From positions 868,001 through 932,000 of the forward strand of contig NZ_CP046453.1 in NCBI RefSeq assembly GCF_009734405.1: a DNA stretch of 64,000 bases, in the 5' to 3' direction. Positions 6,581-24,689 of this stretch are shown here, in pieces. A model generated the notes under the pieces. It saw only the letters and a program-made list of their open reading frames with translations. It searched no databases and had not been told where the DNA came from. The position numbers and the translations under genes are program-made. The stretch is from Corynebacterium comes (GTDB lineage: Bacteria > Actinomycetota > Actinomycetes > Mycobacteriales > Mycobacteriaceae). Each line of letters begins with the position of its first letter. The stretch's first letter is position 1.

Positions 6581-6590
6581 CCGTCGACGG
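6581..6590. promoter_or_regulatory. GTCGAC-core palindrome in the gntR promoter
   Basis: CCGTCGACGG, a perfect 10-bp palindrome, ends one base before a TAGCAT -10-like hexamer (6592-6597), about 45 bases before the GntR start. The same GTCGAC core occurs in the promoter regions at 8857, 8934, 19373 and 24630. The position suits negative autoregulation by the GntR protein. Confidence 0.5.
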
Positions 6591-6635
6591 ATAGCATGGT
6601 CAGTGAGAACGTGGAAGCAGGATGGAGGATCAACG

Positions 6636-7424
6636 ATGACGGGTGACCGTACTTCTTTCGACGTCGGCTATCAGCAGGACGCTGAAGGGCGCTCAGCGGG
6701 CGCCCGCCAGGAGGGGCAGTTCCGTGAGAGCCTGCGGAAGCTGCTTCTGCGCAACCTCGGTTTCAGCGACCGTGAGGAATCTCTTGTGGCCCAGATCGCC
6801 GGTGATGTGGGGCTGCGCATCATCGAGGGCGAACTCCTGCCGGGGGACGAGGTGAATTCGGTGGATCTGGCCAAGCAGTTCGGAACGAGTCGTACACCGG
6901 TCCGGGAAGCCCTGCTCATGCTGGAGAAGCACCGCATGGTGGAGGTTCCCGCACGGCGGCGCCCCCGGGTGTCGGATTTCCTCGAGGTTCCGGTCAAGGA
7001 CCTGTATCACGCCCGTGCCCTGGTCACCGGCTTCATGGCTGAGGCGGTGTGCAGGAACTGGCAGGGTACGGACCTGGAACCCATGCGGGCGAAAGTGGCT
7101 CAGATGGCCGCCGCCTGCGACGCCGGAGATGTCAACGCCTTCTTCTGGGCCAACATCAGCTTCGGTGAATGCGCGACGTCCATCGCCGGTAACAGTCTCG
7201 TGGCAGGCTTCATTGACTCCATCGGCCTGTCCAGTCTGCGTCTCCGCCGTAAGTCCATGACACTCCCGGGGCGCATGGAGGAGTCGACGCGTGATCATCA
7301 GCGCCTGATGCTTGCCTTCGAGCGTCGCGATTCCCAGCTGGCCAAGGCCCTGTCCATGGGTATCATCCGGGACGCCTATCTTGCCCTGACCAACGACAAC
7401 CCCGCCAACTGGCACTTCACCTAG
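6636..7424 (+). CDS. GntR family regulator, FadR/FCD subfamily
   Basis: 262 residues. A winged helix-turn-helix spans about 50-112 with the diagnostic recognition segment [10 protein letters not shown] (84-93), followed by an all-helical FCD ligand domain (about 120-250). FCD domains usually bind organic acids through a metal held by an Asp/His set; here the region expected to carry the first D-x3-F-H type ligands reads NISFGE, so part of that site may be lost, while a later [13 protein letters not shown] matches the usual histidine-containing helix. Start ATG 6636 has GGAGGA 8 bases upstream. It is the only regulator inside the catabolic region, and GTCGAC palindromes fit the GT-n-AC operator type known for FadR-like proteins. 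Confidence 0.92.
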
Positions 7425-7430
7425 AGAGCT

Positions 7431-7438
7431 TGTCGACA
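7431..7438. promoter_or_regulatory. TGTCGACA site just after gntR
   Basis: An exact copy of the 8-bp palindrome, 7 bases after the GntR stop and before the convergent CoA-transferase gene. Its position is not that of a promoter, so it may be incidental or an auxiliary site. A small CCGCC/GGCGG hairpin at about 7480-7492 lies between the two stops. Confidence 0.25.
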
Positions 7439-7496
7439 TCCCCGTCGGTGCAGGAGGCCGGACCCGGCGAGAGGTGGGGCCGCCTCCGGCGGAGAC

Positions 7497-8750
7497 CTAG
7501 TTCACGAGTTCCTCGGCCAGGGGAGTCTGAATGGCGCCTGCCTCGAGCAGCTGGTCAATTTCGCTGGAGGACTTGCCCAGGACATCGCGGAGGATGTCGC
7601 TGGTGTGCTCTCCGAGCGCCGGCGGGAAGGAGTCCCGGCTGCGGGGGTTGCGGCTCAGCTTGATGGGGTTGCCCAGGGTCTTCACGGAGGCCCCGTTCCC
7701 GTCGTCAAGCTCCACCACCATCTCGCGGTGCAGGATCTGGGGGCTGGTCAGGGCGAGGTCGAGCGTATTGACCATGCCCACCGGGATGCCGGCTTCATTG
7801 AAGAGGGCGACCCATTCGGCGGCGTCGCGCTCGAGGAATGCCGGCTCGAGGATGTCCCACAGCTCCTCCTTGTTTCTCAGGCGATCGCCGTTGAGGGTGA
7901 AACGGGGGTCGTCGAGAAGCTCCGGGTGGCCGAGGGCCTGGGCCATCGCCTGCCACATGCGCTCGGTGTTGGCGGTGGTGACGATGTCACGGCCGTCGCC
8001 GGCGGTGAACTGGCGATAGGTGGGAATGGCGTCGTGACCACTTCCCTGGGGGCCGGGGACATGCCCGGATTCCAGGTGGTAGGTGCCCTGGTAGGAGAGC
8101 ATGGCCACCAGACAGTCGAGCATGGAGATGTCGATGTACTCGCCCTGGCCGGTTTCCTTGACGTTATGCAGGGCGGAAAGGATGCCGATGGCTGCGTGCA
8201 GGCCCGCTGCGATGTCGCCGACGGGGATTCCGGTGCGGACGGGGCGCCCGCCGCGTTCTCCGGTGAGGCTCATCGTCCCGGACAATGCCTGGACAATCAT
8301 GTCGTAGGCGGGAAGGTCCCGGTCGGGGCCGCTCTGTCCGAAACCGGAAATGGAGGCCCAGATCAGCGCCGGATTGTTCTCCATCTCATCCTCCCGGTCG
8401 ATGCCGAGGCGGGAGAGGACTCCTGGGCGGAAGTTCTCCACCACGACGTCGGCCGTCTTGATGAGCTCGCGCACCAGTTCAGTGCCTCCGGGCTTCTTCA
8501 TGTTGATCACGACGGACTTCTTGTTGCGGTTGATGGTGTGGAAGTAAGCGCTGTCGTCGCGGATGAAGTGCGGGGGAACGGTCCGGCTGAGGTCGCCGGC
8601 GGGAGTTTCGATCTTGATGATCTGGGCTCCCATGTCACCGAGTATCTGGGTTCCGTGGGGGCCGGCGAGAAACTGCGTGAAGTCCAGAATCTTGATTCCG
8701 TTGAGGGGCCCCTTCGTGGGGGTGGCGGGGGTATTGGTTGAAGATTCCAT
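7497..8750 (-). CDS. Family III CoA-transferase (CaiB/BaiF/Frc type)
   Basis: 417 residues. Transfers CoA between acyl-CoA and a free carboxylic acid, usually in catabolism of carnitine, oxalate, succinyl-aromatics or similar acids. The fold marker is seen at the N-terminus (LNGIKILDFTQFLAGPHGTQILGDMGA, split here by reading), and the catalytic aspartate is D150 in the PAYDMIVQALSG motif. Alone on its strand, convergent with gntR and divergent from the SDR operon, with which it shares the 225-base control region holding two GTCGAC sites. Inferred role: activating an acidic intermediate of the cluster's substrate. The CoA donor and acceptor are not predictable. Confidence 0.93.
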   Translation of the reverse strand: MESSTNTPATPTKGPLNGIKILDFTQFLAGPHGTQILGDMGAQIIKIETPAGDLSRTVPPHFIRDDSAYFHTINRNKKSVVINMKKPGGTELVRELIKTADVVVENFRPGVLSRLGIDREDEMENNPALIWASISGFGQSGPDRDLPAYDMIVQALSGTMSLTGERGGRPVRTGIPVGDIAAGLHAAIGILSALHNVKETGQGEYIDISMLDCLVAMLSYQGTYHLESGHVPGPQGSGHDAIPTYRQFTAGDGRDIVTTANTERMWQAMAQALGHPELLDDPRFTLNGDRLRNKEELWDILEPAFLERDAAEWVALFNEAGIPVGMVNTLDLALTSPQILHREMVVELDDGNGASVKTLGNPIKLSRNPRSRDSFPPALGEHTSDILRDVLGKSSSEIDQLLEAGAIQTPLAEELVN

Positions 8751-8856
8751 GAATATCGCTTTCTTTTCCGACGGTGGCGGATAATGATGCAGGTCACAAG
8801 ACAGGTGTCTAGTGACTTTCCTTTCGGTAACGACAGCTTAGGGCAAATATTCTTTT

Positions 8857-8866
8857 GTGTCGACAC
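8857..8866. promoter_or_regulatory. GTGTCGACAC operator candidate, upstream of the -35 of the SDR operon
   Basis: A perfect 10-bp palindrome in the divergent control region between the CoA-transferase and the SDR operon, directly before the proposed -35 (8867). It extends rightwards as GTCGACACTTGAC, sharing GTCGACACT with the sites at 8934 and 19373. Confidence 0.6.
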
Positions 8867-8896
8867 TTGACGAGATGTGGGTCACGTTTGTATGGT
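8867..8896 (+). promoter_or_regulatory. Predicted sigma-A promoter of the SDR-to-P450 operon
   Basis: TTGACG (8867-8872) and TATGGT (8891-8896) are separated by 18 bases, a fair fit to corynebacterial housekeeping promoters. The start would lie near 8903, leaving a leader of about 70 bases before the ATG at 8976. GTCGAC sites sit directly upstream of the -35 and about 30 bases after the predicted start. Confidence 0.5.
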
Positions 8897-8932
8897 CATT
8901 GTCATGTTCATTACGCAGTGAGTGCGGGAACA

Positions 8933-8942
8933 AGTCGACACT
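8933..8942. promoter_or_regulatory. Second GTCGAC operator candidate in the SDR operon leader
   Basis: AGTCGACACT, about 34 bases before the SDR start codon and 76 bases right of the first site. A paired arrangement across a promoter would allow looping or roadblock repression by a dimeric GntR protein. Confidence 0.5.
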
Positions 8943-8975
8943 AAGAGGTGTTGGCCAACGTTGAAAGGAACAGTT

Positions 8976-9737
8976 ATGCGTCTGGAGAATGAAGTAGCAA
9001 TCATCACCGGTGGTGGATCCGGAATGGGCCGTACCGGAGCCATCCGCTTTGCTGAAGAGGGGGCCGCAGTAGTGGTTGCGGATCTCAACCTCGAAGCCGC
9101 AGAGGAGACGGTGAGGCTCGTTGAGGAGAATGGCGGCCGTGCGGTCGCTGTCCAGGCTGATGTCTCCACCCTCGAGGGCAACCAGAAAGCTGTCGATGCT
9201 GCACTGGAGAATTACGGAAGTCTCTCCATTGCCTGGGCCAACGCCGGCGTAGCCACTGCAGTCAAGCCGCTTCTCGAGGCCACCGAGGCCGATGAGAAGC
9301 ACTTTGATCTCATGCATGCGGTCAACGTCAAGGGCCCCTGGAACCTCGCCCGCGCCGCGATGCCGCACCTGAAGGAAACCAAGGGTTCCATGGTCATCAC
9401 CGCCTCCCTCTCGGGTCTCACCGCCCGGCCAGGCAACTCCGCCTACTCCGCGACCAAGGGTGCGGCAGTCCAGATGACCCGTGCGCTGGCCATCGAGTTT
9501 GCTCCTCATGTCCGCGTCAACTCGATCTGTCCGGTCGCCACCGAGACCCCGATGCAGGATGTCTTCACCCCGGGCGACATGGCCAAGGTCATCCAGCCGA
9601 AGATCATCGCCGGCATCCCGATGGGCCGCCTGGCCAACACCACCGACATGGCTGACGCCGCGCTTTTCCTCGCATCACGCGAAGCCGGAATGATCTCCGG
9701 TCACAACCTTCCCGTCGACGGAGGCTCCCTGTGCTAA
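8976..9737 (+). CDS. Short-chain dehydrogenase/reductase (classical SDR), first gene of catabolic operon
   Basis: 253 residues. NAD(P)-binding TGGGSGMG at residues 11-18, the NAG motif as ANAG (88-91), catalytic Ser144 and the YxxxK pair Tyr157/Lys161, and a PVDGG end. The Asp after beta2 (VVADLN) favours NAD over NADP, which suits an oxidative alcohol dehydrogenase. ATG 8976 has a GAAAGGA ribosome site and starts the Rossmann fold directly. It overlaps the next gene (ALDH) by 7 bases, so both are coupled: together they could oxidise an alcohol to an acid. The substrate is unknown. Confidence 0.94.
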   Translation: MRLENEVAIITGGGSGMGRTGAIRFAEEGAAVVVADLNLEAAEETVRLVEENGGRAVAVQADVSTLEGNQKAVDAALENYGSLSIAWANAGVATAVKPLLEATEADEKHFDLMHAVNVKGPWNLARAAMPHLKETKGSMVITASLSGLTARPGNSAYSATKGAAVQMTRALAIEFAPHVRVNSICPVATETPMQDVFTPGDMAKVIQPKIIAGIPMGRLANTTDMADAALFLASREAGMISGHNLPVDGGSLC

Positions 9738-11194
9738 GCACCAAGACCCGAATTGCTGAATCTTTCTACGGCTCCTTCATTGACGGCCACATGGTCGATG
9801 AAGGCACCAACCGCACCTTCGACAGCATCAACCCCGCCAACGGTGAGGTCATCACCTCCATCCAGGCCGGCGGCAAGTCCGAGGTCGATGATGCGGTGGC
9901 CAGTGCCAAGGCGGCTTTCCCCGCCTGGCGTGATCTCCCCGGCGTGGAGAAGGGCCGTATCTTCCTGAAGATCGCCGAGAAGATCAAGGAGAACACCGAG
10001 CGACTGGTGTACCTGGAGTCGCTCGACAACGGCAAGACCCGCATGGACGCCCAATTCGACGTCATGACATCTGCGCGGTACTTCGAGTACTACGCGGGTC
10101 TGGCTGACAAACTGGCCGGTGAGACCATTCCGCTGGGGGATACCCACATCTCCTACACCCGCTCGGAGCCTTTCGGTGTCACCGCGCACATCGTGCCGTG
10201 GAACGCCGCCTTCCAGCAGGCCGCCCGTGGTGTCGCCCCGGCCCTGCTCGCGGGTAACACCGCTGTGGTCAAGCCCGCCGAGGACACCTCCATCACCACC
10301 ATCGAACTCGCCCGCATCGCGGTTGAGGCAGGTCTTCCGGCAGGTGTATTCAACGTGGTCACCGGTCTGGGCAGGGATGCCGGTGCCGCACTGGTGTCCC
10401 ACCCGGATGTCGGACGTGTCACCTTCACCGGTTCCGTCCCCACCGGCCAGGAGATCATGCGTGCCTCCGCCGAGAACCTCAACCCACTGACCCTGGAGCT
10501 CGGAGGCAAGTCCCCGAACATCATCTTCGAGGATGCCAAACTGGAGGATGCCATCCGTGGCGCCTTCTTCGCCATCAACATCAACGCCGGTCAGGTCTGC
10601 GCTGCAGGCTCTCGTCTCCTGGTGCACAGCTCCGTCCACGATCAGGTGGTGGACAAGCTGGTGGAGATGAACAGTCAGATCAAGCTCGGACCAGGCACTG
10701 ACGCAGCCTCCCAGATGGGTGCGATCACCACCGCAGCCCAGTTCGAGAAGATCCAGGAGTACCTGGAGATCGGCCGCAACGAGGGCGCAGAGGTCGCCGT
10801 CGGTGGCTCCCGCGCCACAGGGGAGAACCTCGACGCAGGACGGTTCATCCAGCCGACCATCTTCGTCAACGTGCAGAACTCCATGCGTATCGCACAGGAG
10901 GAGATCTTCGGACCGGTGCTGTCCGTGATCAGGTTCGACACGGAGGAGGAGGCGGTGCAGATCGCCAACGACACCAGATACGGACTCACCGCAGGCGTGT
11001 GGACCCAGAACCTGGGCCGCGCACACCGCATGGCAGCCCGGATCCAGGCGGGACAGGTCAACGTCAACGACTACTTCGCCGGTGGTGTCCAGGCACCGTT
11101 CGGTGGTTTCAAGCAGTCCGGTTACGGCCGGGAGAAGGGCGTCCACGCGGTCTCCGAGTACCTGCAGACCAAGACCGTGAGCATGAAGCTCTGA
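9731..11194 (+). CDS. NAD(P)-dependent aldehyde dehydrogenase
   Basis: 487 residues, full length for the ALDH superfamily. Catalytic residues are all present: Asn158 in PWNAA, Glu256 in LELGGKSP and the nucleophile Cys290 in GQVCAAGSR. It oxidises an aldehyde to a carboxylic acid in the cytosol. Start is GTG at 9731, overlapping the preceding SDR by 7 bases; its stop overlaps the next start by one base. The tight packing supports one transcript. The closest subfamily by eye is betaine/aromatic aldehyde dehydrogenase-like, but this does not fix the substrate. Confidence 0.96.
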   Translation: MLSTKTRIAESFYGSFIDGHMVDEGTNRTFDSINPANGEVITSIQAGGKSEVDDAVASAKAAFPAWRDLPGVEKGRIFLKIAEKIKENTERLVYLESLDNGKTRMDAQFDVMTSARYFEYYAGLADKLAGETIPLGDTHISYTRSEPFGVTAHIVPWNAAFQQAARGVAPALLAGNTAVVKPAEDTSITTIELARIAVEAGLPAGVFNVVTGLGRDAGAALVSHPDVGRVTFTGSVPTGQEIMRASAENLNPLTLELGGKSPNIIFEDAKLEDAIRGAFFAININAGQVCAAGSRLLVHSSVHDQVVDKLVEMNSQIKLGPGTDAASQMGAITTAAQFEKIQEYLEIGRNEGAEVAVGGSRATGENLDAGRFIQPTIFVNVQNSMRIAQEEIFGPVLSVIRFDTEEEAVQIANDTRYGLTAGVWTQNLGRAHRMAARIQAGQVNVNDYFAGGVQAPFGGFKQSGYGREKGVHAVSEYLQTKTVSMKL

Positions 11195-12561
11195 TGATCA
11201 CAAGCGCTGAGCAGCAGCACCTCGACGCATCCCTCAGACTCCTCATTGAGCGGTGCAGGTCCCTGACCATTGACGATCTGAACAGCCGTGCGATCATAAC
11301 CGCCAGGCACAGTCTTCTGGACTGGTTCGGATGCGCGGTGGCCGGAGCCAACGAGCCTGCTGCCCGGCGCTTCCGCGGCATCATGGATCCGGCGCCGGGC
11401 GATACCCCGCTGATCGGAACCCCCGACAGTCTCCACTGGCGGGATGCCCTGGTGATCAACGCCTTCAACGGCCACCTCCTGGATTTCGATGACATGCTGC
11501 CGTCGTTCTCCGGGCACCCCAGCGCGGTGGTTGTGCCCGCGCTGCTCACCGTCGGTGAGCAGACCGGGGCGGGCGTCGACAAGCTCCTCACCGCCCTGGT
11601 CGTAGGGACGGAAGTGGGGGATTGGGTGGCATCCCACGTCCTGCCCGGCCACTATGACGCCGGGTGGCATGCGACAGGCACCCTCGGCACCTTCGCCGCC
11701 GCCGCCGCTGTCTGTCACCTGCGCGGACTGAGCCACGATGAATGGATCAGCGCGCTCGATGCCGCAGCTACCCAGGCAGCCGGCCTGAAAGCCATGTTCG
11801 GCACACTCGCCAAACCGATGCACGCGGGTAACGCCAGCCAGGCCGGCGTGGTCGCAGCAAGCTTGTCGACGATCACCTCTTCATCGGGCAGGGCTCTTAA
11901 CGGCGAGACCGGATTCATCTCCAACTACCGCGGTGCCGGTACTGTCCCGCCTGCACGGCGGGAAGGTTTCGCCATCGAGGGGATGCTCTACAAGACCTAC
12001 GCCTCCTGTTTCATGACACAGGCGGCGGTGGATGCAGGTGCGCAGGCGGCAACCCTGCCCGGGCTGGACAGGGCGCTGATCACCCTCAGCGTGAGCCCGA
12101 AATTGGCCGATGTGTGCGCGATCGAGGATCCGCGGACATCGAACGACGCGAAGTTCAGCCTCCATGCCACCTTCGCCCTCTCCGCGCTGGGGTTCGACCT
12201 CAGCACGGAGGAGGCGTTTCACCCGGACAACCTGCAGGACCCGGCGTACCAGGACCTGCGGGAAAGAATCACCCTCCGGTTCGACCCCGAACTGGCGGGA
12301 CAGGAACCGAGAATCGGCGTCCACATCCGGCGGGCGCGCGGGGAATCCTGGGACACCACAGTGGACCGCGGCCAACCTGCCACCGACCTCGCGGCGAGGG
12401 AAAAACAGCTGGTGCAGAAATTCACCCGGCTCGTCGAGCCTCACCTGGGCGCCACCCGGACCCGCCTGGCCAGCGACCTCATACTTCATTCCAGCCGCAC
12501 CACCATCCCGGAACTGACCGCGGCCACCACCCAACCACTGATTCCCGAAACCACGATCTAG
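11194..12561 (+). CDS. MmgE/PrpD family protein
   Basis: 455 residues. MmgE/PrpD proteins include 2-methylcitrate dehydratase, cis-aconitate decarboxylase and iminodisuccinate epimerase; all act on small poly-carboxylates. Family marks seen are the N-terminal helix RHSLLDWFGCAVAGANEP, the active-site loop NGHLLDFDDM with an HPSAVVVPALL follow-up, and KPMHAGNASQAGVVAA. The start ATG overlaps the ALDH stop. Inferred role: dehydration, decarboxylation or isomerisation of an acid made by the preceding dehydrogenases. No citrate synthase or methylisocitrate lyase genes are near, so this is not a methylcitrate-cycle locus. Confidence 0.9.
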   Translation: MITSAEQQHLDASLRLLIERCRSLTIDDLNSRAIITARHSLLDWFGCAVAGANEPAARRFRGIMDPAPGDTPLIGTPDSLHWRDALVINAFNGHLLDFDDMLPSFSGHPSAVVVPALLTVGEQTGAGVDKLLTALVVGTEVGDWVASHVLPGHYDAGWHATGTLGTFAAAAAVCHLRGLSHDEWISALDAAATQAAGLKAMFGTLAKPMHAGNASQAGVVAASLSTITSSSGRALNGETGFISNYRGAGTVPPARREGFAIEGMLYKTYASCFMTQAAVDAGAQAATLPGLDRALITLSVSPKLADVCAIEDPRTSNDAKFSLHATFALSALGFDLSTEEAFHPDNLQDPAYQDLRERITLRFDPELAGQEPRIGVHIRRARGESWDTTVDRGQPATDLAAREKQLVQKFTRLVEPHLGATRTRLASDLILHSSRTTIPELTAATTQPLIPETTI

Positions 12562-12575
12562 GAGCACGAAACCCC

Positions 12576-13457
12576 ATGGAAAGACTCGCACTCGAGGACG
12601 TCCACGCCATCGACGTCCACGCGCACGCCCTCAACTCCAGCCGCGGTTGTGGGCATGAGGACAAGGTCGGCGACGCCACCAGGGCGGATCAGGCTGAGCG
12701 CTGGAAGACGGATCTGGTCAACATCGACCTGGACGGCACCGCCGAGTACTACCGTTCCCGCAAGATGATGGCTGTGGTGTTCGGCGTGGATTCCGAACGC
12801 CACATGGGCGATGTCCGTGTCCCCAACGACGAGGTGGCCGAGGCCGCCCAGCGTCACGATGACGTACTGATCCCGTTCGCCTCCATCGATCCTTACCGCG
12901 GCAAGCCGGGCCTGGACGAGGCCCGCGGACTGATCCGCGACTACGGCATCAAGGGCTTCAAGTTCCACCCCAGCGTGCAGGGCTTCGAACCGAATGATCC
13001 GATGGCCTACAAGTTCTATGAGCTCATCGAGGAGCACGAGCTGGTCGGCCTCTTCCACTCCGGTCAGACCGGTATCGGCCGCACCTCACCGGGCGGTGGC
13101 GGAGTGCGCCTGCGCTACTCCAACCCGATGTACTACGACGACATCGCCGTTGACTTCCCCGGCATGAAGATCATCATCGCCCACCCGTCCTTCCCCTGGC
13201 AGGATGAGGCACTCGCCGTGGCGCGACACAAGCAGAACGTCTACATCGACCTCTCCGGATGGTCACCGAAGTACTTCGACGACAAGCTGGTCCAGCACTC
13301 CAACTCCCTCATCAAGGACAAGGTGCTCTTCGGATCGGACTTCCCTCTCCTGACCCCGGACCGCTGGCTCGAGGACTTCGCCAAGCGGGAGTTCAAGGAC
13401 GAGGTCCGTCCGCTGATCCTCCGTGAGAACGCCATCAGGCTCTTCGGTCTGAAATAA
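12576..13457 (+). CDS. Amidohydrolase family protein (ACMSD/amidohydrolase-2 superfamily)
   Basis: 293 residues forming a metal-dependent TIM barrel. Metal ligands can be placed: HxH near the start (IDVHAHA), a histidine in GLFHSGQTG, another in IIAHPSFPW, and the final aspartate in LFGSDFPLLTP. The KGFKFHPSVQGF strand is typical of the ACMSD, gamma-resorcylate decarboxylase and oxalomesaconate hydratase group, so decarboxylation, C-C hydrolysis or hydration is as likely as amide hydrolysis. ATG 12576 follows GGAG, 14 bases after the MmgE/PrpD stop. Its place in the operon suggests action on a carboxylated intermediate. Confidence 0.92.
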   Translation: MERLALEDVHAIDVHAHALNSSRGCGHEDKVGDATRADQAERWKTDLVNIDLDGTAEYYRSRKMMAVVFGVDSERHMGDVRVPNDEVAEAAQRHDDVLIPFASIDPYRGKPGLDEARGLIRDYGIKGFKFHPSVQGFEPNDPMAYKFYELIEEHELVGLFHSGQTGIGRTSPGGGGVRLRYSNPMYYDDIAVDFPGMKIIIAHPSFPWQDEALAVARHKQNVYIDLSGWSPKYFDDKLVQHSNSLIKDKVLFGSDFPLLTPDRWLEDFAKREFKDEVRPLILRENAIRLFGLK

Positions 13458-13507: not shown

Positions 13508-13828
13508 GTGAGCGTTATGTCTTCCACCAAGCCAGAAACCACCGGCAACGGCACCGGGAACAAGCCGTTCTCCGTCTACCTCGCACTGAGCGAGAAGGAG
13601 TACGAGGTGCCCGCCGACAAGTCCATCCTGAAGGTTCTTGAGGAGGCCGGTGAATCCGTCATCTCCTCCTGCCAGGAAGGCACCTGCGGTACCTGCGAAA
13701 CTCCGGTGCTGTCCGGCACGGTCGACCACCGCTGCCGCGTTCTTGACGATGAAGAGCGCGAGGCCAATGACACCATGATGATCTGCGTGTCTCGCGCCTG
13801 CGGCAACCGACTCGAACTGGACATGTAA
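13508..13828 (+). CDS. [2Fe-2S] ferredoxin, phthalate-dioxygenase-reductase type
   Basis: 106 residues. Cysteines 55, 60, 63 (C-x4-C-x2-C) and 93 would bind a plant-type [2Fe-2S] cluster. The context around them (CQEGTCGTCE, then DHR and MMICVSRA) is that of the ferredoxin domain found at the C-terminus of phthalate or vanillate oxygenase reductases, yet here it stands alone without FMN or NAD domains. It should carry electrons from the reductase at 18091 to the P450 at 14712. GTG 13508 or ATG 13517 may start it; a GAGAGAGCAAG stretch precedes the first. The stop is 2 bases before the next gene. Confidence 0.94.
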   Translation: MSVMSSTKPETTGNGTGNKPFSVYLALSEKEYEVPADKSILKVLEEAGESVISSCQEGTCGTCETPVLSGTVDHRCRVLDDEEREANDTMMICVSRACGNRLELDM

Positions 13829-17229: not shown

Positions 17230-18054
17230 TTAGCGGATCGGGGTCAGGGGATCGCCGAACTCGGCCCAGTCACGGTAGTCGTGGATGATCCAGAGCCGGG
17301 CATCCTCCTCCTCGACGATCTGCAGGAGCTTCCGGATGCTCTTCACGGCCTGTTCCGGATCGGTGTCGGTGGGGGCGGGAGCGAGCATGTCGACGGCCTC
17401 CCGGAGGTGGACCACATCAGCGGAAAGCACGACGTTCTGCCCGGGGAGACGGACCAGGACCGCCATCTGACCGGGGGTGTGGCCCGGAAGGTGGAGCAGT
17501 TCGACGGCACCGTCGCCGAAGAGGTCGTGGCGTTCTTCGGTGACCTCGGTCCAGTCGTAGTTCTGGACGTCAGCACCGAGGAAATCGCGTTCCATGACGA
17601 GGTGGGCGGACTCGGGGGTCGGGTTCTTGCCGTAATCCAACTCACCGGGACCGATGATGAACCTGGCGTTCGGGAACTGAAAGAGGCCACCGGCGTGGTC
17701 GGTGTGGAGGTGGGAGACGATCACGTGGGTGACATCCTCCGGGGTGTAACCGAGCTTGCGCAGCTGAGGCTCGATCGCCTGCTCCGGCTTGGAGACAATC
17801 ATGTCGGTCTCCGGGCGGTCGCCGAAAAGCAGCGCGGGATCCTCGCAGACACACGGGTGGAAACCGGTGTCCACCATGATCAGACCCTTGTCATGCTCGA
17901 TGAGGAAGGCGGGCAGCGGAATCTCCACAGGTCCTTCCGCGCCGACAACCATGTGTTCGGCCTGCATGGTCATGTTGGGGGAGTCCAAGCCGTAGAGGAC
18001 ATTGGCCGTCTTCTTTGCGACGCCGGTGGAGGTCCGGGGGATTGCGGAAGTCAT
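17230..18054 (-). CDS. Metallo-beta-lactamase-fold hydrolase (AHL/gamma-lactonase-like)
   Basis: 274 residues, no signal peptide. All seven expected zinc ligands can be placed: His115, His117, Asp119, His120 (HLHTDH), His192 (PGHTPGQ), Asp213 (SADVVH) and His258. This spacing and the GHTPGQ loop match the N-acyl-homoserine lactonase group (AiiA/AttM-like), which also contains general gamma-lactone hydrolases. No luxI or luxR gene is near, and the gene lies between a ferredoxin reductase (36 bases) and an SDR, so a catabolic lactone is a more natural substrate than a signal molecule. Confidence 0.9.
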   Translation of the reverse strand: MTSAIPRTSTGVAKKTANVLYGLDSPNMTMQAEHMVVGAEGPVEIPLPAFLIEHDKGLIMVDTGFHPCVCEDPALLFGDRPETDMIVSKPEQAIEPQLRKLGYTPEDVTHVIVSHLHTDHAGGLFQFPNARFIIGPGELDYGKNPTPESAHLVMERDFLGADVQNYDWTEVTEERHDLFGDGAVELLHLPGHTPGQMAVLVRLPGQNVVLSADVVHLREAVDMLAPAPTDTDPEQAVKSIRKLLQIVEEEDARLWIIHDYRDWAEFGDPLTPIR

Positions 18055-18090
18055 GGGGTGCTCCTTCTGTGGGGTAGGGGATTGAGCGGC

Positions 18091-19326
18091 TCAGGCCGCG
18101 GCGGAGATCGCTTTTTTGAGATGGTCACGGAGATCGAAGTCTTCTGCCTGCGCATGGTGCAGAGACAGGGGGATGTTCTCGGTGAACATCCGGCGGACGA
18201 TGTTCTGGTCCGCGGGTTGGTTGACTGATTCAGCCCCCACCAGTTCACCCTCACGGAAGGCCAGGACGGAGAACTTCTTCTTGTCCGGATCGCCGATCAC
18301 GGTGATGTCATCGTCCGGGTGGATGACTCCGGTCATCTGCAGGCGGTAACGCCCCTGCGTGGACCAGAACCAGGGGGTGACGGAGTACGGTTCCTGGACG
18401 CCCAGGATCTCCTGGGCGACATGTTTGCCCTGGTCTGTGGCATTCTGCACGGACTCCAGGCGCGTGCGGGTGTGTGCCGCGAGGAGCGGGAAGGACGCGC
18501 AGTCACCGATGGCGAAGATCCTGGGGTCGGAGGTACGCAGGTGCTGGTCGACGATGATGCCGTTGCCGATACGGAGTTCAGCCTCATCGGCGATCTCCAC
18601 GTTGGGCTGCACACCGATGCCCACGACGAAAAGATCTGCCTCATACCGTCGCCCGGTGGTTGAGATGACGGTGGTTGCCTGTCCGGAGGCGTCCTTCTCC
18701 AGGGATTCCAGTCCTTCACCAAAGCGCATGGTGATGCCGTGCTCGGCGTACCAGTTCTTGAACCTCTGGCTGGTGTAGGGGGTGACTGCGCGGCTCATGG
18801 GACGGTCCGCGAACTCCAGCACCGTGACTTCGCAGCCGTGCTTGAGTGCTGCGACGGCGAACTCCATGCCGATGAAGCCTGCACCCACCACAACGACACG
18901 TGAGCCTTCGCTGATCCGGGACTTGAGGGTGACCGCATCCTGGAGGGTCTTCAAAGTGTGGACGTTGGTGGCGTCGGCGCCTTCGCAGTTCAAGGTTCTG
19001 GGACGGGCGCCAGTGGCGATGACGAGATTCTCATAAGAGAAGGAGTTGTCGCCGGCGTGGACTGTGCACGACTCACGGTCGATGGAGGTGACGGTGGTTC
19101 CCCGCAGCAGGGTGATGTCGTTGTCTGTGTAGAAGCCCTCCTCCCTGATGGGGAGGGGAGCGGCCTCGAAGTCGACCTTCATGTAGTCCTTGGACAGAGG
19201 CGGTCGTTGGTAGGGGAGCTCCGGGGAGGAGTCGAGGATGGTGATTGGCTGCTGAAGGCCGCCGGCACGGAGGCTTTCTGCAACCTGTACCCCGCCGTGT
19301 CCGGCGCCGATGATTACGGTGCTCAC
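18091..19326 (-). CDS. FAD-dependent ferredoxin reductase (putidaredoxin/rhodocoxin reductase type)
   Basis: 411 residues. N-terminal FAD-binding GAGHGGVQ at about residues 7-14, the ATGARPR segment, a second nucleotide motif VVVGAGFIGMEFA for NAD(P)H, and the GDCA motif (IFAIGDCA) that contacts FAD. The C-terminal 90 residues match the reductase-C domain typical of oxygenase-coupled ferredoxin reductases. It should take electrons from NAD(P)H and pass them to the [2Fe-2S] ferredoxin at 13508 for the P450. It heads the minus-strand operon, under a promoter region with a TGTCGACA site. Confidence 0.94.
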   Translation of the reverse strand: MSTVIIGAGHGGVQVAESLRAGGLQQPITILDSSPELPYQRPPLSKDYMKVDFEAAPLPIREEGFYTDNDITLLRGTTVTSIDRESCTVHAGDNSFSYENLVIATGARPRTLNCEGADATNVHTLKTLQDAVTLKSRISEGSRVVVVGAGFIGMEFAVAALKHGCEVTVLEFADRPMSRAVTPYTSQRFKNWYAEHGITMRFGEGLESLEKDASGQATTVISTTGRRYEADLFVVGIGVQPNVEIADEAELRIGNGIIVDQHLRTSDPRIFAIGDCASFPLLAAHTRTRLESVQNATDQGKHVAQEILGVQEPYSVTPWFWSTQGRYRLQMTGVIHPDDDITVIGDPDKKKFSVLAFREGELVGAESVNQPADQNIVRRMFTENIPLSLHHAQAEDFDLRDHLKKAISAAA

Positions 19327-19372
19327 TGTCGGTCCCTTTCATTGTTGGCGCCAGTTCACTCAGATGGCATTC

Positions 19373-19380
19373 TGTCGACA
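19373..19380. promoter_or_regulatory. TGTCGACA operator candidate before the ferredoxin reductase operon
   Basis: A perfect 8-bp palindrome extended as TGTCGACACTA, 46 bases before the reductase start. It lies just downstream of the likely -10, a repressor position. It shares GTCGACACT with the two sites of the SDR operon. Confidence 0.6.
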
Positions 19381-19393
19381 CTATGCGAATGTG

Positions 19394-19425
19394 ATAATAG
19401 TGTGTCATCGCACACAGTTTGTCAA
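19394..19425 (-). promoter_or_regulatory. Possible promoter of the reductase operon
   Basis: On the minus strand TTGACA (19425-19420) is followed by TATTAT (19399-19394) after 20 bases, or by CACTAT after 17. The -35 is ideal; the spacing of the best -10 is long, so the exact hexamer is uncertain. Confidence 0.4.
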
Positions 19426-19429
19426 GTGT

Positions 19430-19925: not shown

Positions 19926-20987
19926 TCAGGGTTTCCTGAACAACCCGATGATGCGGGGGATCGAGGATGCGGCAAAAAGGATGAGAATCATCCGAATGAG
20001 CTGGATGGTCACGACTGCCGGACTGGTTCCGGTTTCACTGGAGATGGCGAGCACGGTGTCCATCGCGCCGGGGCTGGTGGCGAGGTAGGCGTCAAAATAG
20101 GTGATACCGACCCACCGGGAGATGGGAAAGGCCAGTAACGCGCAGCTCACGATCAGCATGAAGATGAAGATGAGGATTGCCGGAAGCTGAACGGCGAAGT
20201 GCTTCAGGGAGTCTCTGGACATGGTTCCGCCACAGAGCCAGCCAATGGACAGGAACGCGATCACCCGGAGGGGTTCGGGCGGATTCATGTTGATCTCCAC
20301 CGGCAGCACCGCCAACAACAGGATGGTGATGAGCAGGGGGCCGAGGACCGAGGGGACGGGCAGGCGGCCCCGTTTGGCCAGCAGGCCCCCGACCAGTGCC
20401 ACCAGCACGATAAGAGCAATCATCCACCAGGTCTGATCCACAGTGGAATCCGTTACCCGGGTGGCCTGCTGCTGCTCTCGGGGCAGCAGGCCTGTGACCA
20501 CGGGGAGGGAAACTGCGACGGCCAGCAGTCGCAGGTACTGGGTCAGGGACACGAATCGGATATCAGCACCGATCTCCTTCGCGATGGCGGGCATGAAGGC
20601 AGCGCCGCCGGCCAGCATCGAGATCATCCCGGTCTCTTTTGACACCCTCTTCTGGAACCGCGAGAGCAGATAACCTGTGACCAGGCCGATGATGATGGTG
20701 AACAGAGCCACCGCAAGGCTGGGCAGGATATACCCGAGGAGGTTCTCCAGTGTCTCATCGAACAACGGGACCGCAGCGAGAACCGCGACGATACCCGCGC
20801 CGAATGAGTAGAGCATCTTGTTCACCCGAAATTCGGAACTGCTGATCAGTGCGGAAGCACCCGCAGACAGGATGCCCGCGAGGATCCAGGACGCCGGAAC
20901 ATTCAGTTCGGTGAACCCCCACCCCATGACCAGGGAAAGGGGAATCACGATCATCCAACGCAGATCCAACCGGTTTCCGGATGTCAT
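19926..20987 (-). CDS. AbrB family integral membrane protein (COG3180 type)
   Basis: 353 residues, with about 10 hydrophobic helices arranged as two similar halves, each with a helix pair ending in a glycine-rich GTMSRDSLK or GAxFMP-like segment. Proteins of this type have been labelled 'putative ammonia monooxygenase' or 'AbrB', but show no cofactor motif and are best seen as transporters of unknown substrate. The start ATG has GAGGAGG upstream. It lies between the reductase operon and the TRAP genes on the minus strand, so it may export or import an intermediate of the pathway. Confidence 0.85.
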   Translation of the reverse strand: MTSGNRLDLRWMIVIPLSLVMGWGFTELNVPASWILAGILSAGASALISSSEFRVNKMLYSFGAGIVAVLAAVPLFDETLENLLGYILPSLAVALFTIIIGLVTGYLLSRFQKRVSKETGMISMLAGGAAFMPAIAKEIGADIRFVSLTQYLRLLAVAVSLPVVTGLLPREQQQATRVTDSTVDQTWWMIALIVLVALVGGLLAKRGRLPVPSVLGPLLITILLLAVLPVEINMNPPEPLRVIAFLSIGWLCGGTMSRDSLKHFAVQLPAILIFIFMLIVSCALLAFPISRWVGITYFDAYLATSPGAMDTVLAISSETGTSPAVVTIQLIRMILILFAASSIPRIIGLFRKP

Positions 20988-21067
20988 CTACGGCCTCCTC
21001 GATTATCAGTCACACCTGAACGAATTACCTCTGCTGCTGGCTCGATGTGAACCACACATACGAAAGC

Positions 21068-21098
21068 GAAGAATCCGACCATGGGGGTCGGACTCTTC
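21068..21098 (-). terminator. Terminator of the TRAP operon
   Basis: A 13-bp stem (21068-21080 with 21086-21098, one G-T pair) closes a 5-base loop, 23 bases after the DctM stop. On the minus strand GCTTTCG follows. It separates the TRAP operon from the AbrB gene. Confidence 0.7.
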
Positions 21099-21120
21099 GG
21101 GCATTCGTAGACGAGCTCCG

Positions 21121-22644
21121 TTAAGCAGCGGCGTTGCCGCTGGTGACAAGCCAGGTGGCCAACTCGGGGAAGAGCATCAGCAGGCCGATGACCAGCAGTG
21201 CGAGCGGGACGCCCAGCAACGCGGCGCTAAACACATTGCCCAGCGTGATCCGCTGGCCCAGATTGACATCCGGATTCTGGGAAATCTTGTGGACGAGGAA
21301 GACAAGCACACCCACCGGCGGGGTCAGCATTCCGATCTCTGCCGCCAACACGGTCAGGACACCGAACCAGACCAGATCCACGTCCAACGCATTCAGGGTG
21401 GGCAACATGACCGGAACACTGAGCAACATCAGGGAGATCGGATCCATGAACATGCCCAGGATGATCATGAGGACGAGTGCAGCGAGAACAAACTGCGTTG
21501 CAGACAGGCCCATCGAATCGATCCACCCGGTGAACAGGAACGGGACACCGCTCAGTGCGAGCATACGGGTGACAAATGCCGCGCCGATCAGGAGGAAGAA
21601 CACGCCGCCGGTGGCGTACACGGTTCCGGCGAGTGCGCTTCCGATGGTGGAGAAGAATTCGCGGCCCTTGTAGAGGAGGGTGATGAGCATGGCGCCGATG
21701 CAGCCGATGGCAGCGGCCTCGGTGGCGGTGAAGAAGCCGCCGTACATGCCGCCGAGGATGACAGTGACCAGAACGGGCAGCGGCCAGACCTGACCGAGTG
21801 ATGCCCAACGTGCCTTCCATCCCACCGCCGGCAGCTTCTCGCCGGCGATGGACGGGAAGATCATCGCGAGGGTGATGATAGCTATGTTGACCACCAGCGC
21901 AAGCAGGATTCCCGGGACGACACCGGCGAGCAGCTGCGGCCCGACCGGGAGGTTGGCGATACCGGCGTAGACCACCAGCAGCAGGCTCGGCGGAATCAAC
22001 TGGCCCGGGAGACCGGCCATGATCACAGAACCCAGCGCGAGTCGCCTGTCATAGCCCGACTTGAGCATCTCCGGGATTCCGATGCGACTGATCGCGTAGG
22101 CGATGCCGATGGTCGAACCACTGGCAGCGGCGAGGCCGGCACCGGCCATGTTCGTGGTGACCGCCAGGCCACCCGGCAGCCAGTTCAACCATGCACGGGC
22201 GGCGTCGAAGATGCGGGTGGTGGCTCCGCTCTTCCACAGCAGAAGGCCCATGAAGATGAACATCGGGATCACGGACAGGGACCAGCTGGCGGCATTGGCA
22301 GCCGGCAGATCCACCAGGCTCCGCTCCACCACGGAGGTTCCGCTGATGCGCCAGATACCCATGAGCCCCGCGATACCCATGGCGACGGCAATGGGAACCC
22401 GCCAGGCCATCAGGGTGAGGAGCAGTACCAGACACACAAGTGCCACCTGGAGTTTGGTGGTCAGTGCACCGGAGAAGATCAGACCGATCTCACCGATCAG
22501 GATCGCCGCCATGACGGTGAGGGCGATGGCGGTGGGCTTGCCGGACTTCCGGGTCATGCCGGGCAGCGCCGGGGACGTGACAGTCCTGTTTTCCTGGCGT
22601 ATTTCCGGGGAGTTTTTTTCCACGGCTTTCACTGCTGATGTCAT
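21121..22644 (-). CDS. dctM: TRAP transporter large permease (DctM)
   Basis: 507 residues with about 12-13 hydrophobic helices; the large membrane subunit of a sodium-driven tripartite ATP-independent periplasmic transporter. The DctM hallmark stretches are visible: ALASGSTIGIAYAISRIGIPEMLKSGY-like first repeat (read as AAASGSTIGIA...EMLKSGYD) and GGVFFLLIGA...TPPVGVLVF near the end. N-terminal 40 residues are a polar extension. The start overlaps the DctQ stop by 4 bases (ATGA). The subunit set suggests uptake of a carboxylate. Confidence 0.95.
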   Translation of the reverse strand: MTSAVKAVEKNSPEIRQENRTVTSPALPGMTRKSGKPTAIALTVMAAILIGEIGLIFSGALTTKLQVALVCLVLLLTLMAWRVPIAVAMGIAGLMGIWRISGTSVVERSLVDLPAANAASWSLSVIPMFIFMGLLLWKSGATTRIFDAARAWLNWLPGGLAVTTNMAGAGLAAASGSTIGIAYAISRIGIPEMLKSGYDRRLALGSVIMAGLPGQLIPPSLLLVVYAGIANLPVGPQLLAGVVPGILLALVVNIAIITLAMIFPSIAGEKLPAVGWKARWASLGQVWPLPVLVTVILGGMYGGFFTATEAAAIGCIGAMLITLLYKGREFFSTIGSALAGTVYATGGVFFLLIGAAFVTRMLALSGVPFLFTGWIDSMGLSATQFVLAALVLMIILGMFMDPISLMLLSVPVMLPTLNALDVDLVWFGVLTVLAAEIGMLTPPVGVLVFLVHKISQNPDVNLGQRITLGNVFSAALLGVPLALLVIGLLMLFPELATWLVTSGNAAA

Positions 22645-23300
22645 TTGGCCACGGTCCTTTCAGGTGCACGTAAGTTGTCGGTGCCCTCTGACACCATGAT
22701 GTTCTGGTTCTCCAGATCGGCGAGAACATCCGCTTCCTCGCCGACGGCTTCCTGCTCGGCGGAAAGGACTGCATCCCTGTTGATGAGGAGCTGGAGGATG
22801 TGGGCGACGATCACCAGGAGGAAGGCGAGGCAGGCGAGAGGAACGGCGAAACGGGGAGGCCAAACGGTGATGCCGGTCGAGGAGTCATATTCACCGACCG
22901 CCATCTGCTCCAGGGCATTGGTGAAACCCGACCAGCCGATCAGCGACACGAAGATCCCGGTGAAGCACAGGGCCACAATGGCCATGATCTGCCTGCCCCA
23001 GGGGTTCAGCCGCTCATAGACGATGGGGAGATCCGTGTGCTCGCCGTAATGCTGGGCCGCGGCCAGGCCGAAGAACACGAGGGGAAGCATCCACCAGAAG
23101 GATACGAACTGATTAGTGCCCTGGATCGGCGTGTTCATACCGAAACGCATGGCCACGTCCAGGAACACATTCACCACCATGCCCAGTGCGGCGGCCGCGC
23201 CCAGGAAGATGGAGAGCCGGATCAGGATCTTGACCGCAAGATCGAGGCCGCGGATGAGTGCGCTGGACTTCTCCGCCTGAATGTTGTGAGTGGTACTCAT
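22641..23300 (-). CDS. dctQ: TRAP transporter small permease (DctQ)
   Basis: 219 residues with four predicted membrane helices (near 28-50, 70-85, 107-128 and 150-170). The central TNQFVSFWWMLPLVFFGLAAAQHYGEHT segment, with its aromatic and HxGEH pattern, is typical of DctQ. It joins the binding protein to the large permease at the membrane. A polar tail of about 45 residues follows the last helix. The gene is 26 bases after dctP and overlaps dctM by 4 bases. Confidence 0.93.
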   Translation of the reverse strand: MSTTHNIQAEKSSALIRGLDLAVKILIRLSIFLGAAAALGMVVNVFLDVAMRFGMNTPIQGTNQFVSFWWMLPLVFFGLAAAQHYGEHTDLPIVYERLNPWGRQIMAIVALCFTGIFVSLIGWSGFTNALEQMAVGEYDSSTGITVWPPRFAVPLACLAFLLVIVAHILQLLINRDAVLSAEQEAVGEEADVLADLENQNIMVSEGTDNLRAPERTVAK

Positions 23301-23326
23301 GTCAATCCTTCTCAGTGGTGGCCGGG

Positions 23327-24589
23327 TTAGGAGAGGTTGGTGAAGATCTCTTCATCGAGCTTGTCGGCCCACGGCTGGAGATCCACGGAGCCATCCCCCA
23401 GTTCGGTGGCCCACTCCTGGTGGTTGGCATGTCCACCGTCGTATCCCAGGTCCTCCACAATGCCCACCCACTTCTCACGGAGCTGCTCGTACTCGGTAAC
23501 TGCAGCCTCGGAGTCGGAGACGACCGCCGGAGGGTTGTCAATCATGTCCTGGCGGACACCGTCGAAATGGGTATCCAGCGCCTGCTGGAGATCCTCCCCC
23601 GGTGCGTGGTAGTTGAGGGACATGGCATCCTGCTCCTGGTGGAAACGCTTCTGCTCATCGAAATAGCCGGTGTAGTAGATCTTGAGGAACTCCGCACGGT
23701 TGTCATCGAACGCCGCCTTCTGCTCCGGCGTGAGGGAATCCATGAAGTCGTTGGAGGATGCCAGGGAGATGGAGCTCCAACCGGGAAAGTCGACCTTGGT
23801 GAAGTTCTTTCCGATCTCCCAGAGTCCGAGGCCGGTCATGTCCGGTTCTGCTCCGACGAAGCAGTCGACCACGCCGCGCTCGAAGCCTTCGTAGATCTCA
23901 GCGCCGGACAGGGTTACCGGGGTCATGCCCAGTGCGGTCACGGCTTCGGAGTAGAGCTCGCCGCCCACACGGACACGCTTGCCCCGGGCGTCGGCGAGGG
24001 AAGTGACGGGATCCTTGCACAGGAGCTGATAGTTGTCATGGTTCTGGAAACGGGGGATCAGTGGGTAGATGCCCTGGCCCTCCAGTTCCTCCGACACTTC
24101 CGGGTGGCTGTAGGACCACTCGATGGCCGCGGCAGCGTTGGCGAGCAGGCCGACGACGGGACGCTCATCACCGCCATAACCGAGCTGCGAGGCCCAGGCA
24201 TCAATCGGGAACGAGGCCGGGGTGTACGCCATGCCCAGGTAACCCAGATCGATGACCCCGCCGGTGAGGCTCGTGGCCACTTCCGGCTGCTTGACCAGTG
24301 CATCTGCGAAGTAGTGCTCGAAGGTCAGCTCACCATCAGAGGATTCGGTGACCACATCACCGAACTGGGTCATCGCCGTACTCATCATGTGATCGGGGCC
24401 GTAGGGCGGATTCGCTTTGACGATCACGTTATCCCCGGAGTTGGCAGTGTCGGCACTCGCCGATTCTCCTGTCGACATTCCCCCACCGCAAGCTGTGAGC
24501 GTCAACGCGGAAACGGTCAGGATGGCGGTAGTGGAGAGCAGTTTACGGGCGAAACTGCTGGAAGGGCGACTTTTGGAATCGACGCGCAT
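23327..24589 (-). CDS. dctP: TRAP transporter substrate-binding lipoprotein (DctP)
   Basis: 420 residues. A signal peptide (basic MRVDSKSR, hydrophobic core about 18-32) ends in the lipobox LTAC with Cys34, so the protein is anchored outside the membrane, as expected in a Gram-positive. The mature part follows the DctP fold, with a VRVGGELYSEAVTALGMTPV segment (read in pieces: RVRVGGELYSE, GMTPVTLSG) that places the substrate-carboxylate arginine in the usual strand. ATG 24589 is chosen over upstream starts because AGAGGAAG precedes it and the signal peptide begins here. First gene of the TRAP operon, under a -10 overlapped by a TGTCGACA site. Confidence 0.94.
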   Translation of the reverse strand: MRVDSKSRPSSSFARKLLSTTAILTVSALTLTACGGGMSTGESASADTANSGDNVIVKANPPYGPDHMMSTAMTQFGDVVTESSDGELTFEHYFADALVKQPEVATSLTGGVIDLGYLGMAYTPASFPIDAWASQLGYGGDERPVVGLLANAAAAIEWSYSHPEVSEELEGQGIYPLIPRFQNHDNYQLLCKDPVTSLADARGKRVRVGGELYSEAVTALGMTPVTLSGAEIYEGFERGVVDCFVGAEPDMTGLGLWEIGKNFTKVDFPGWSSISLASSNDFMDSLTPEQKAAFDDNRAEFLKIYYTGYFDEQKRFHQEQDAMSLNYHAPGEDLQQALDTHFDGVRQDMIDNPPAVVSDSEAAVTEYEQLREKWVGIVEDLGYDGGHANHQEWATELGDGSVDLQPWADKLDEEIFTNLS

Positions 24590-24629
24590 GAGTTCTTCCT
24601 CTTGGGGTTGATGGGGTGAAGCTTGGTTG

Positions 24630-24637
24630 TGTCGACA
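24630..24637. promoter_or_regulatory. TGTCGACA operator candidate overlapping the TRAP -10
   Basis: The palindrome touches the -10 hexamer of the TRAP promoter (24642-24637), so a bound repressor would block RNA polymerase. An extra inverted repeat CAAGTG/CACTTG (24663-24668 and 24677-24682) flanks the -35 and resembles CACTTGAC next to the sites at 8864 and 19421. Confidence 0.6.
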
Positions 24638-24665
24638 GTTTACGATTGTGACCCCGTTCACGCAA
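24637..24665 (-). promoter_or_regulatory. Predicted sigma-A promoter of the TRAP operon
   Basis: On the minus strand TTGCGT (24665-24660) and TAAACT (24642-24637) are spaced by exactly 17 bases. Transcription would start near 24630, about 40 bases before the dctP ATG. Confidence 0.55.
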
Positions 24666-24689
24666 GTGCTTAAGGTCACTTGTCGAGGA

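Follow-up and report, generated by a model that had tools for sequence, protein, structure and literature searches.

A conserved, probably co-regulated gene island of Corynebacterium comes that may serve carboxylic acid use through a CYP199-like P450 and side-chain cleavage

In a 64,000-nucleotide stretch of Corynebacterium comes DNA (hereafter the window; positions 868001-932000 of contig 1 in a 2.89-Mb genome of two contigs), we analyzed an island of 16 genes lying between fumC and glpX. It encodes a GntR-type regulator, a CaiB-type coenzyme A (CoA) transferase, three short-chain dehydrogenases/reductases (SDR1 to SDR3), an aldehyde dehydrogenase (ALDH), a MmgE/PrpD-family protein, an amidohydrolase, a CYP199-like cytochrome P450 with a ferredoxin and a ferredoxin reductase, a lactonase, an AbrB-family permease, and a tripartite ATP-independent periplasmic (TRAP) importer. 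Judged by gene order in other genomes, the island is a conserved catabolic unit and, judged by shared operator-like sites, it is probably co-regulated. Our favoured reading, offered tentatively, is that its genes form a single GntR-type regulon through which a carboxylic acid is used, probably one of the aryl-alkanoic (phenylpropanoid-like) class, via the P450 and side-chain cleavage.

The island recurs as a unit. A second Corynebacterium genome (G150) has all 16 genes at 56-83% identity and in the same order, with the TRAP operon inverted. In Arthrobacter yangruifuii, 15 of the 16 genes were found, AbrB not being seen within the stretches read; the order is GntR-CaiB-SDR1-ALDH-PrpD-amidohydrolase-ferredoxin-SDR2-P450, then a major facilitator superfamily (MFS) transporter and the TRAP operon, with a divergent SDR3-lactonase-reductase group adjoining GntR. 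The metagenome-assembled genome of Microbacterium sp. 67-17 holds a CaiB-SDR-ALDH-PrpD-amidohydrolase-SDR-P450 block without an adjoining ferredoxin, reductase, or SDR3, and a genome-wide search for SDR3 gave no match at E 1e-40. In place of TRAP, it has a branched-chain-type ABC transporter together with an MFS-like gene, and a lactonase lies further along. CaiB relatives are 66-75% identical in three island genomes, GntR relatives (48-62%) adjoin the block at loci L005, L007, and L090, and SDR3 relatives (57-71%) lie near the lactonase at L006, L012, L090, and L120. The P450 is rare in the genus; at E 1e-60 or better, it occurs in 2 of 242 genomes, own genome counted. Because the order is conserved and the operator-like sites are shared, a chance grouping is unlikely; the single catabolic unit of the original prediction is supported, and the condition named there to refute it, an order not conserved elsewhere, was checked and did not apply, the order being kept in G150, A. 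yangruifuii, and Microbacterium 67-17. Literature searches found no published description of this gene set, in agreement with the claim that it is not a described pathway.

Near-matches to the palindrome AGTGTCGACACT precede the P450/CoA-transferase, reductase-lactonase, and TRAP operons, and the palindrome of the caiB/SDR1 gap is common to the upstream regions of the reductase and dctP and to the matching regions of three other genomes. For the best 13-mer, mismatches in the best six of twelve regions added up to 6 vs 18-21 in six shuffles, a weak control, in that orthologous regions of related genomes were compared, the shuffles were single-base, and the caiB/SDR1 region itself was left unshuffled. 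The core TGTCGACA has six copies in the 64 kb, five of them in the island (mean 1.5 and maximum 5 in 100 dinucleotide shuffles); its non-promoter copies are at 7431, where gntR and caiB converge with their 3' ends, and at 24446 and 24470, in the coding start of dctP. With up to three mismatches, the 12-base pattern is rarer than in shuffles (17 vs a mean of 26). With up to two, there are five sites in the first 30 kb, all within 8856-24988, and none in the last 38 kb, compared with 0.57 in 20-kb shuffles. With at most one, both genome-wide sites of the own genome are in the island (8856, and 24446 inside dctP), as are all four in G150, each of them intergenic. A pair of sites 62-75 bp apart, found with hand-picked core variants, occupies the caiB/SDR1 gap in all four island genomes. 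Since the sites with at most one mismatch fall wholly in the island in both Corynebacterium genomes, we favour a single regulon, in which the GntR protein would bind these sites.

The end of the proposed pathway is suggested by the amidohydrolase. This protein shows an Amidohydro_2 fold (PF04909), had no NCBIfam match at 1e-10, and matched a single PDB entry at 1e-3, the uncharacterised 3irs; structures of 2-amino-3-carboxymuconate-6-semialdehyde decarboxylase (ACMSD) exist in the PDB. Relatives on plasmids are 49-58% identical. We fetched a non-random 12 of the 48 matching plasmid records (20 listed) and found a CoA ligase or AMP-binding gene around the relative in 11 of 11 annotated stretches, the unannotated L160 being left out. 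Five of these stretches (L084, L086, L088, L163, and L164) have feruloyl-CoA synthase and crotonase genes and, except L086, an SDR. L083 and L087 have an AMP-binding protein, an enoyl-CoA hydratase or crotonase, and an SDR; L082 and L165 a CoA ligase or AMP-binding protein, a MaoC protein, and an SDR; and L161 and L162 a biotin carboxylase, a HAD phosphatase, and an acetoacetate-CoA ligase. Among seven Microbacteriaceae stretches, drawn from 16 matching genomes, a CoA ligase occurs in three (L155, L158, and L159), and in L153 and L154 a two-subunit CoA-transferase directly precedes the amidohydrolase relative, paralleling CaiB of the island. Some relatives are named 4-hydroxyphenyl-beta-ketoacyl-CoA hydrolase by their sources. 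In passages of one paper, HpeF is a predicted beta-ketoacyl-CoA hydrolase acting after a CoA synthetase, and CouO is its homologue in coumarate and ferulate breakdown (PMC9618137). Because the relatives sit with CoA ligases and in light of these passages, the gene neighbourhoods and source names of the relatives suggest that the amidohydrolase is a retro-Claisen beta-ketoacyl-CoA hydrolase of the CouO/HpeF kind, with CaiB replacing the ligase: the island does have a CoA-activating neighbour, a transferase rather than a Cou/Hpe-type ligase. The earlier label 'ACMSD-like' is the less likely reading, given that the relatives' neighbours are CoA ligases, crotonases, MaoC proteins, and SDRs, as for beta-ketoacyl-CoA hydrolases. 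A second amidohydrolase, 46% identical to the island copy, is encoded elsewhere in the genome (L116, C1:524000-542000, at 8206-14350 of that stretch); its neighbours encode an MFS transporter, an SDR, and a ligase that shares 40% identity with acetoacetate-CoA ligases, and this is probably another beta-keto acid route.

The beginning of the pathway would be the P450, whose closest PDB entries are CYP199 enzymes (E 1e-82 to 3e-70); by convention, the CYP199 family takes members at least 40% identical to a named one. In CYP199A4, the carboxylate-binding residues are R92, S95, R243, S244, and S247. The main arginine is kept (R82) in the window P450 and in 29 of 29 aligned relatives, and R243 is replaced by lysine (K234; lysine in 27 of 29 relatives). 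S244 is kept as S235, a residue shared by 16 of the 29, and the other two serines are lost (S95 to V85, S247 to A238). The heme-side, active-site loop is changed (V295 to S286, F298 to G289), with R287 invariant (29 of 29). Because the main arginine is kept, a lysine stands in for R243, two serines are lost, and the heme loop is changed, the substrate probably has a carboxylate, yet is not plain 4-methoxybenzoate. These residues bear on an O-demethylation or side-chain route for a methoxylated aryl acid, with the P450 acting as a CYP199A4-like para-demethylase and ALDH clearing the aldehydes. The CYP199 resemblance would fit such a route, and one source gives several P450 relatives the name 4-methoxybenzoate monooxygenase, but we consider it improbable because of the altered loop and because it leaves the constant SDR2 partner and the lactonase unexplained.

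That partnership is seen elsewhere. Of 77 loci, nine (L005-L013) were covered by gene tables, and L014-L024 by tblastn only; on plasmids, 49 records matched the P450, the best at 58%, and seven were fetched (H1, H2, H3, H5, H6, H9, and H10). SDR2 directly precedes the P450 in all nine tabulated loci, and seven of them have a lactonase of the island type. The gene before SDR2 encodes one type of flavin monooxygenase in seven of the nine loci and belongs to a CaiB-amidohydrolase block in the other two. This either-or rule fits 13 of 13 loci when the window, G150, L085, and L125 are added. The flavin proteins of eight other loci are 53-83% identical to that of Kocuria, whose closest solved structures are HspB (6-hydroxy-3-succinoylpyridine 3-monooxygenase) and PnpA; Rhodococcus plasmid loci L085 and L125 also encode a maleylacetate reductase and a vicinal oxygen chelate (VOC) protein. 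The HspB/PnpA likeness, together with these two proteins, therefore suggests that the flavin-monooxygenase clusters form a hydroquinone, aromatic route. At two mismatches, the nine loci of this type (L006, L008-L013, L085, and L125) have four operator-like sites in all. HspB and CouO both cleave next to an aryl carbonyl, which gave rise to the idea of a single aryl-ketone-making front end. In its full form, a doubtful proposal, the P450 and SDR would replace beta-oxidation by turning the free acid into a keto acid, followed by activation through a CoA-transferase in place of a ligase, (de)hydration by PrpD at the CoA or dicarboxylate level, and retro-Claisen release of acetyl-CoA by the amidohydrolase, and the same SDR2-P450 front end, in most cases with a lactonase, would in other actinobacteria be joined to a flavin monooxygenase cutting the aryl-carbonyl bond to give a hydroquinone: one front end with two cutters.

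In the SDR2-P450 clusters L010 and L011, genes of the flavin reductase, nitrilase-like, AllG-like, and cytosine/allantoin-permease types (assigned by a Pfam run for L011 and by similarity for L010) hint at a substrate that contains nitrogen. Rhodococcus plasmid loci L124, L127, and L128 hold a separate, well conserved CYP199-like cluster with a PDR/VanB reductase, P450, ALDH, and paired 2,4'-dihydroxyacetophenone dioxygenase genes.

The lactonase could point in another direction, since the nearest models and structures are N-acyl-homoserine lactone (AHL) lactonases. An island centred on this AttM-like enzyme for quorum quenching or the scavenging of signal lactones is, however, very improbable: the protein scores 148.2 bits against the AttM equivalog cut-off of 390, and the operon and operator-like sites tie it to the P450 redox chain and the TRAP importer.

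For the CoA-transferase, the best NCBIfam match is succinate--glutarate CoA-transferase (307 bits, below the 750 cut-off). The PrpD protein has both Pfam domains (PF03972 and PF19305) and the active-site His/Lys residues of the MmgE/PrpD superfamily; as judged by eye, it keeps the histidines and lysine aligned with those of IRG1 and IDS-epimerase, where they are catalytic. It matched no NCBIfam family at E 1e-10, including 2-methylcitrate dehydratase and cis-aconitate decarboxylase. Few relatives exceed 45% identity: after the 26 listed, identity falls from 46 to 44% and E from 5e-102 to 2e-86. The 394 class genomes gave three matches at E 1e-50, own included, the other two at 37-39% and adding no new gene context, and of the 138 plasmid records matched, the best 30 are 32-36% identical, with no island-type PrpD among them. 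The protein may hydrate or dehydrate a carboxylated intermediate; a role as hydratase is a guess by analogy from the place of crotonase or MaoC in the clusters of amidohydrolase relatives. An alicyclic or terpenoid acid would give these proteins a different use, in which a cyclic ketone would arise through the P450 and an SDR, ring opening of a cyclic beta-keto acid would fall to the amidohydrolase, and the dicarboxylate so formed would be activated by CaiB. This alternative, which follows the line of the original prediction and which we regard as unlikely, draws on the dicarboxylate CoA-transferase model that CaiB matches best, though below cut-off; on PrpD relatives of known function, which use di- or tricarboxylates; on a distant match of SDR3 to the cyclohexanecarboxylate-route protein ChcB2 (148 bits vs an equivalog cut-off of 350); and on the lack of intradiol dioxygenase matches in Microbacterium 67-17. 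It is opposed by the clusters with aromatic-type genes in which the amidohydrolase relatives and several P450 relatives sit, and by the absence from the 16 island genes, as assessed by Pfam scans, of any flavin desaturase or Baeyer-Villiger-type flavoprotein.

An aryl-alkanoic substrate would release a shorter aryl acid, and the genome has genes that could finish it. The original prediction had discounted a simple aromatic pathway for want of a local ring-cleavage gene. This argument fails because a pobA-like gene, which shares 47% identity with a gene annotated 4-hydroxybenzoate 3-monooxygenase, and seven intradiol-dioxygenase matches, two of them within 4 kb of the pobA-like gene, lie elsewhere in the genome. 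In favour of our model, a pobA-like gene is present in four of four island genomes tested vs 41 of 242 genus genomes (two island genomes included). The overall interpretation is partly supported: in its unit, its carboxylate-type importer and CYP199-like P450, and its undescribed gene set, but not in its argument against an aromatic substrate or in the ACMSD label. An intradiol match at L091 (about C1:50-53 kb of the own genome) adjoins a large flavin monooxygenase and is perhaps part of a hydroxyquinol or catechol route.

Our favoured model can be set out as follows. TRAP, perhaps with the AbrB permease, would import the carboxylic acid, and the CYP199-like P450, its arginine and lysine holding the substrate carboxylate, would hydroxylate it with electrons delivered via the island 2Fe-2S ferredoxin and FAD reductase. 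SDR2, with SDR3, would turn the alcohol into a side-chain ketone; because the hydroxy acid tends to close into a lactone, the lactonase would reopen it. Activation to the CoA thioester would be the task of the CaiB transferase. SDR1, perhaps along with the PrpD-like enzyme, would carry the side chain on to a beta-keto group, and hydrolysis of the beta-ketoacyl-CoA by the amidohydrolase would give a shorter (aryl) acid and acetyl-CoA. Genes of the 4-hydroxybenzoate/protocatechuate type elsewhere in the genome would finish the acid. The analysis directly showed the gene families, their conserved order, the operator-like sites held in common, the gene context of the amidohydrolase family, and the existence of pobA-like and intradiol genes; we infer all reactions and their sequence, the class of substrate, GntR binding at the sites, and the roles of ALDH and PrpD.

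Several observations weigh against this model. Genes for a CoA ligase, a crotonase, and an acyl-CoA dehydrogenase are all missing from the 16 of the island, so that CaiB and PrpD would have to carry the CoA steps in putative roles, and the PrpD-family enzymes of known function use free di- or tricarboxylates as substrates. Lactone formation is readily drawn for a gamma-hydroxy acid but not for the beta-hydroxy acid needed for a retro-Claisen reaction. In the P450, two carboxylate-binding serines and the heme-side loop differ from CYP199A4, and the third serine is poorly conserved. Two of the seven Microbacteriaceae stretches (L156 and L157) have carboxylase-type genes, resembling L161/L162, with no CoA ligase or transferase identified. 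At one mismatch or fewer, only two of five genome-wide operator-like sites in Arthrobacter and one of five in Microbacterium are in the island, and a backwards control pattern is about as frequent genome-wide (2, 3, 5, and 2 sites in the four genomes), for which reason the evidence is the placing of the sites and not their number. The contrast in pobA-like genes between island genomes and the genus involves few independent genomes, and larger genomes are likelier to hold pobA. Finally, the Microbacterium 67-17 genome has the block and no intradiol-dioxygenase match.

As for layout, Pfam scans of the window proteins, on which the family calls are based, returned the predicted families and strands for all 16 genes, and the predicted operon packing holds too (Table 1): the seven plus-strand genes from SDR1 to the P450 overlap or are separated by gaps of about 60 bases at most. 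The start codons of GntR, SDR1, and DctP are our choice. Catalytic motifs are intact in the P450 (FGFGIHTCAG, residue 343), the lactonase (HxHxDH, 115), and the amidohydrolase (HxH, as HAH, 21). Long antisense open reading frames, e.g. 14988-16268 on the minus strand, were treated as spurious. The island (window 6400-25120) parts fumC from glpX, which are near neighbours in corynebacteria. In G150, neither gene is present in the 8.1 and 12 kb flanking the island; since the flanks differ, the island therefore moved or arrived separately. GC content is 0.606-0.643 across eight 2-kb windows (8-24 kb) and at least 0.640 in 21 of 24 others; because the remaining three (32-34, 34-36, and 52-54 kb) are equally low, this is a weak hint of acquisition.

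Table 1. Genes and operator-like sites of the island and its flanks (window positions)
Feature	Position	Strand	Remarks
fumC, island flank	4987..6399	-	
GntR-FCD regulator, presumed binder of AGTGTCGACACT-like sites	6636..7424	+	PF00392 + PF07729
Family III (CaiB) CoA-transferase	7497..8750	-	PF02515 (CoA_transf_3), 422 bits
Operator-like palindrome TGTGTCGACACT, 1 mismatch, first of pair	8856..8867	.	caiB/SDR1 gap
Operator-like site CAAGTCGACACT, 3 mismatches, second of pair	8931..8942	.	core 75 bp from first
SDR1, suggested 3-hydroxyacyl dehydrogenase	8976..9737	+	PF13561 (scanned from 8967); putative role from SDRs in relatives' clusters
ALDH	9731..11194	+	PF00171; BADH model 550 bits, below cut-off 668.6
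MmgE/PrpD-family protein	11194..12561	+	PF03972 + PF19305
Amidohydro_2 protein, suggested beta-ketoacyl-CoA hydrolase (CouO/HpeF kind)	12558..13457	+	PF04909
2Fe-2S ferredoxin (Fer2)	13517..13828	+	PF00111, 50 bits
SDR2	13831..14685	+	PF00106
CYP199-like cytochrome P450	14712..15920	+	PF00067; best PDB relatives are CYP199 entries
SDR3	16347..17159	-	PF13561
Metallo-beta-lactamase-fold lactonase, nearest model AttM	17230..18054	-	PF00753; AttM model 148 bits
FAD ferredoxin reductase	18091..19326	-	PF07992 + PF14759
Operator-like palindrome TCTGTCGACACT, 2 mismatches	19371..19382	.	before reductase-lactonase-SDR3 operon
AbrB-family membrane permease	19926..20987	-	PF05145, 231 bits
DctM, TRAP large permease	21121..22644	-	PF06808
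DctQ, TRAP small permease	22641..23300	-	PF04290
DctP, TRAP binding protein; lipoprotein by LTAC motif (by eye)	23327..24589	-	PF03480
Operator-like site AGTGTCGGCACT, 1 mismatch	24446..24457	.	within dctP coding start
Operator-like palindrome TGTGTCGACAGT, 2 mismatches	24628..24639	.	before dctP
glpX, island flank	25121..26134	-	

If the model is correct, actinobacteria would have a route, both modular and mobile, to the use of carboxylated aryl compounds, and the CYP199-like P450 group and the so far unassigned PrpD group would gain a physiological setting. The putative operator AGTGTCGACACT, open to testing, and the TRAP binding protein would then offer a direct way to the substrate.

Among known systems, the Cou/Phd and Hpe routes of rhodococci and corynebacteria, which cleave aryl side chains by CoA-dependent retro-Claisen reactions, resemble the island in its predicted ending. 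The Phd route reportedly has the same hydrolase ending and feeds protocatechuate. For Hpe and CouO, passages of the cited paper likewise describe an Amidohydro_2 beta-ketoacyl-CoA hydrolase ending the route, with the product going to protocatechuate (PMC9618137). Unlike these routes, the island has a CaiB CoA-transferase in place of a CoA ligase, adds a P450, ferredoxin, reductase, PrpD, lactonase, and ALDH, and is without crotonase, MaoC, acyl-CoA dehydrogenase, and acetophenone carboxylase. It shares with the sister clusters of Georgenia, Arthrobacter Bi26, Gordonia, Kocuria, Rhodococcoides, Amycolatopsis, Streptomyces, and Rhodococcus plasmids (L006, L008-L013, L085, and L125) an SDR2 directly before the P450 and, except in L010 and L011, an AttM-like lactonase nearby, whereas these clusters have an HspB/PnpA-like flavin monooxygenase in place of the CaiB-SDR1-ALDH-PrpD-amidohydrolase block. 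CYP199A2 and CYP199A4, which come from Rhodopseudomonas, are the best solved relatives of the P450; like them, it keeps the main carboxylate arginine, a basic residue, and one I helix serine, and unlike CYP199A4, it has S95, S247, V295, and F298 replaced. The cyclohexanecarboxylate (Chc) route also applies a P450 and SDRs to a carboxylic acid, but the island lacks its desaturase genes and SDR3 falls far below the ChcB2 cut-off. If the favoured model holds, the island would thus be a variant of CoA-dependent aryl side-chain cleavage, itself a known kind of route.

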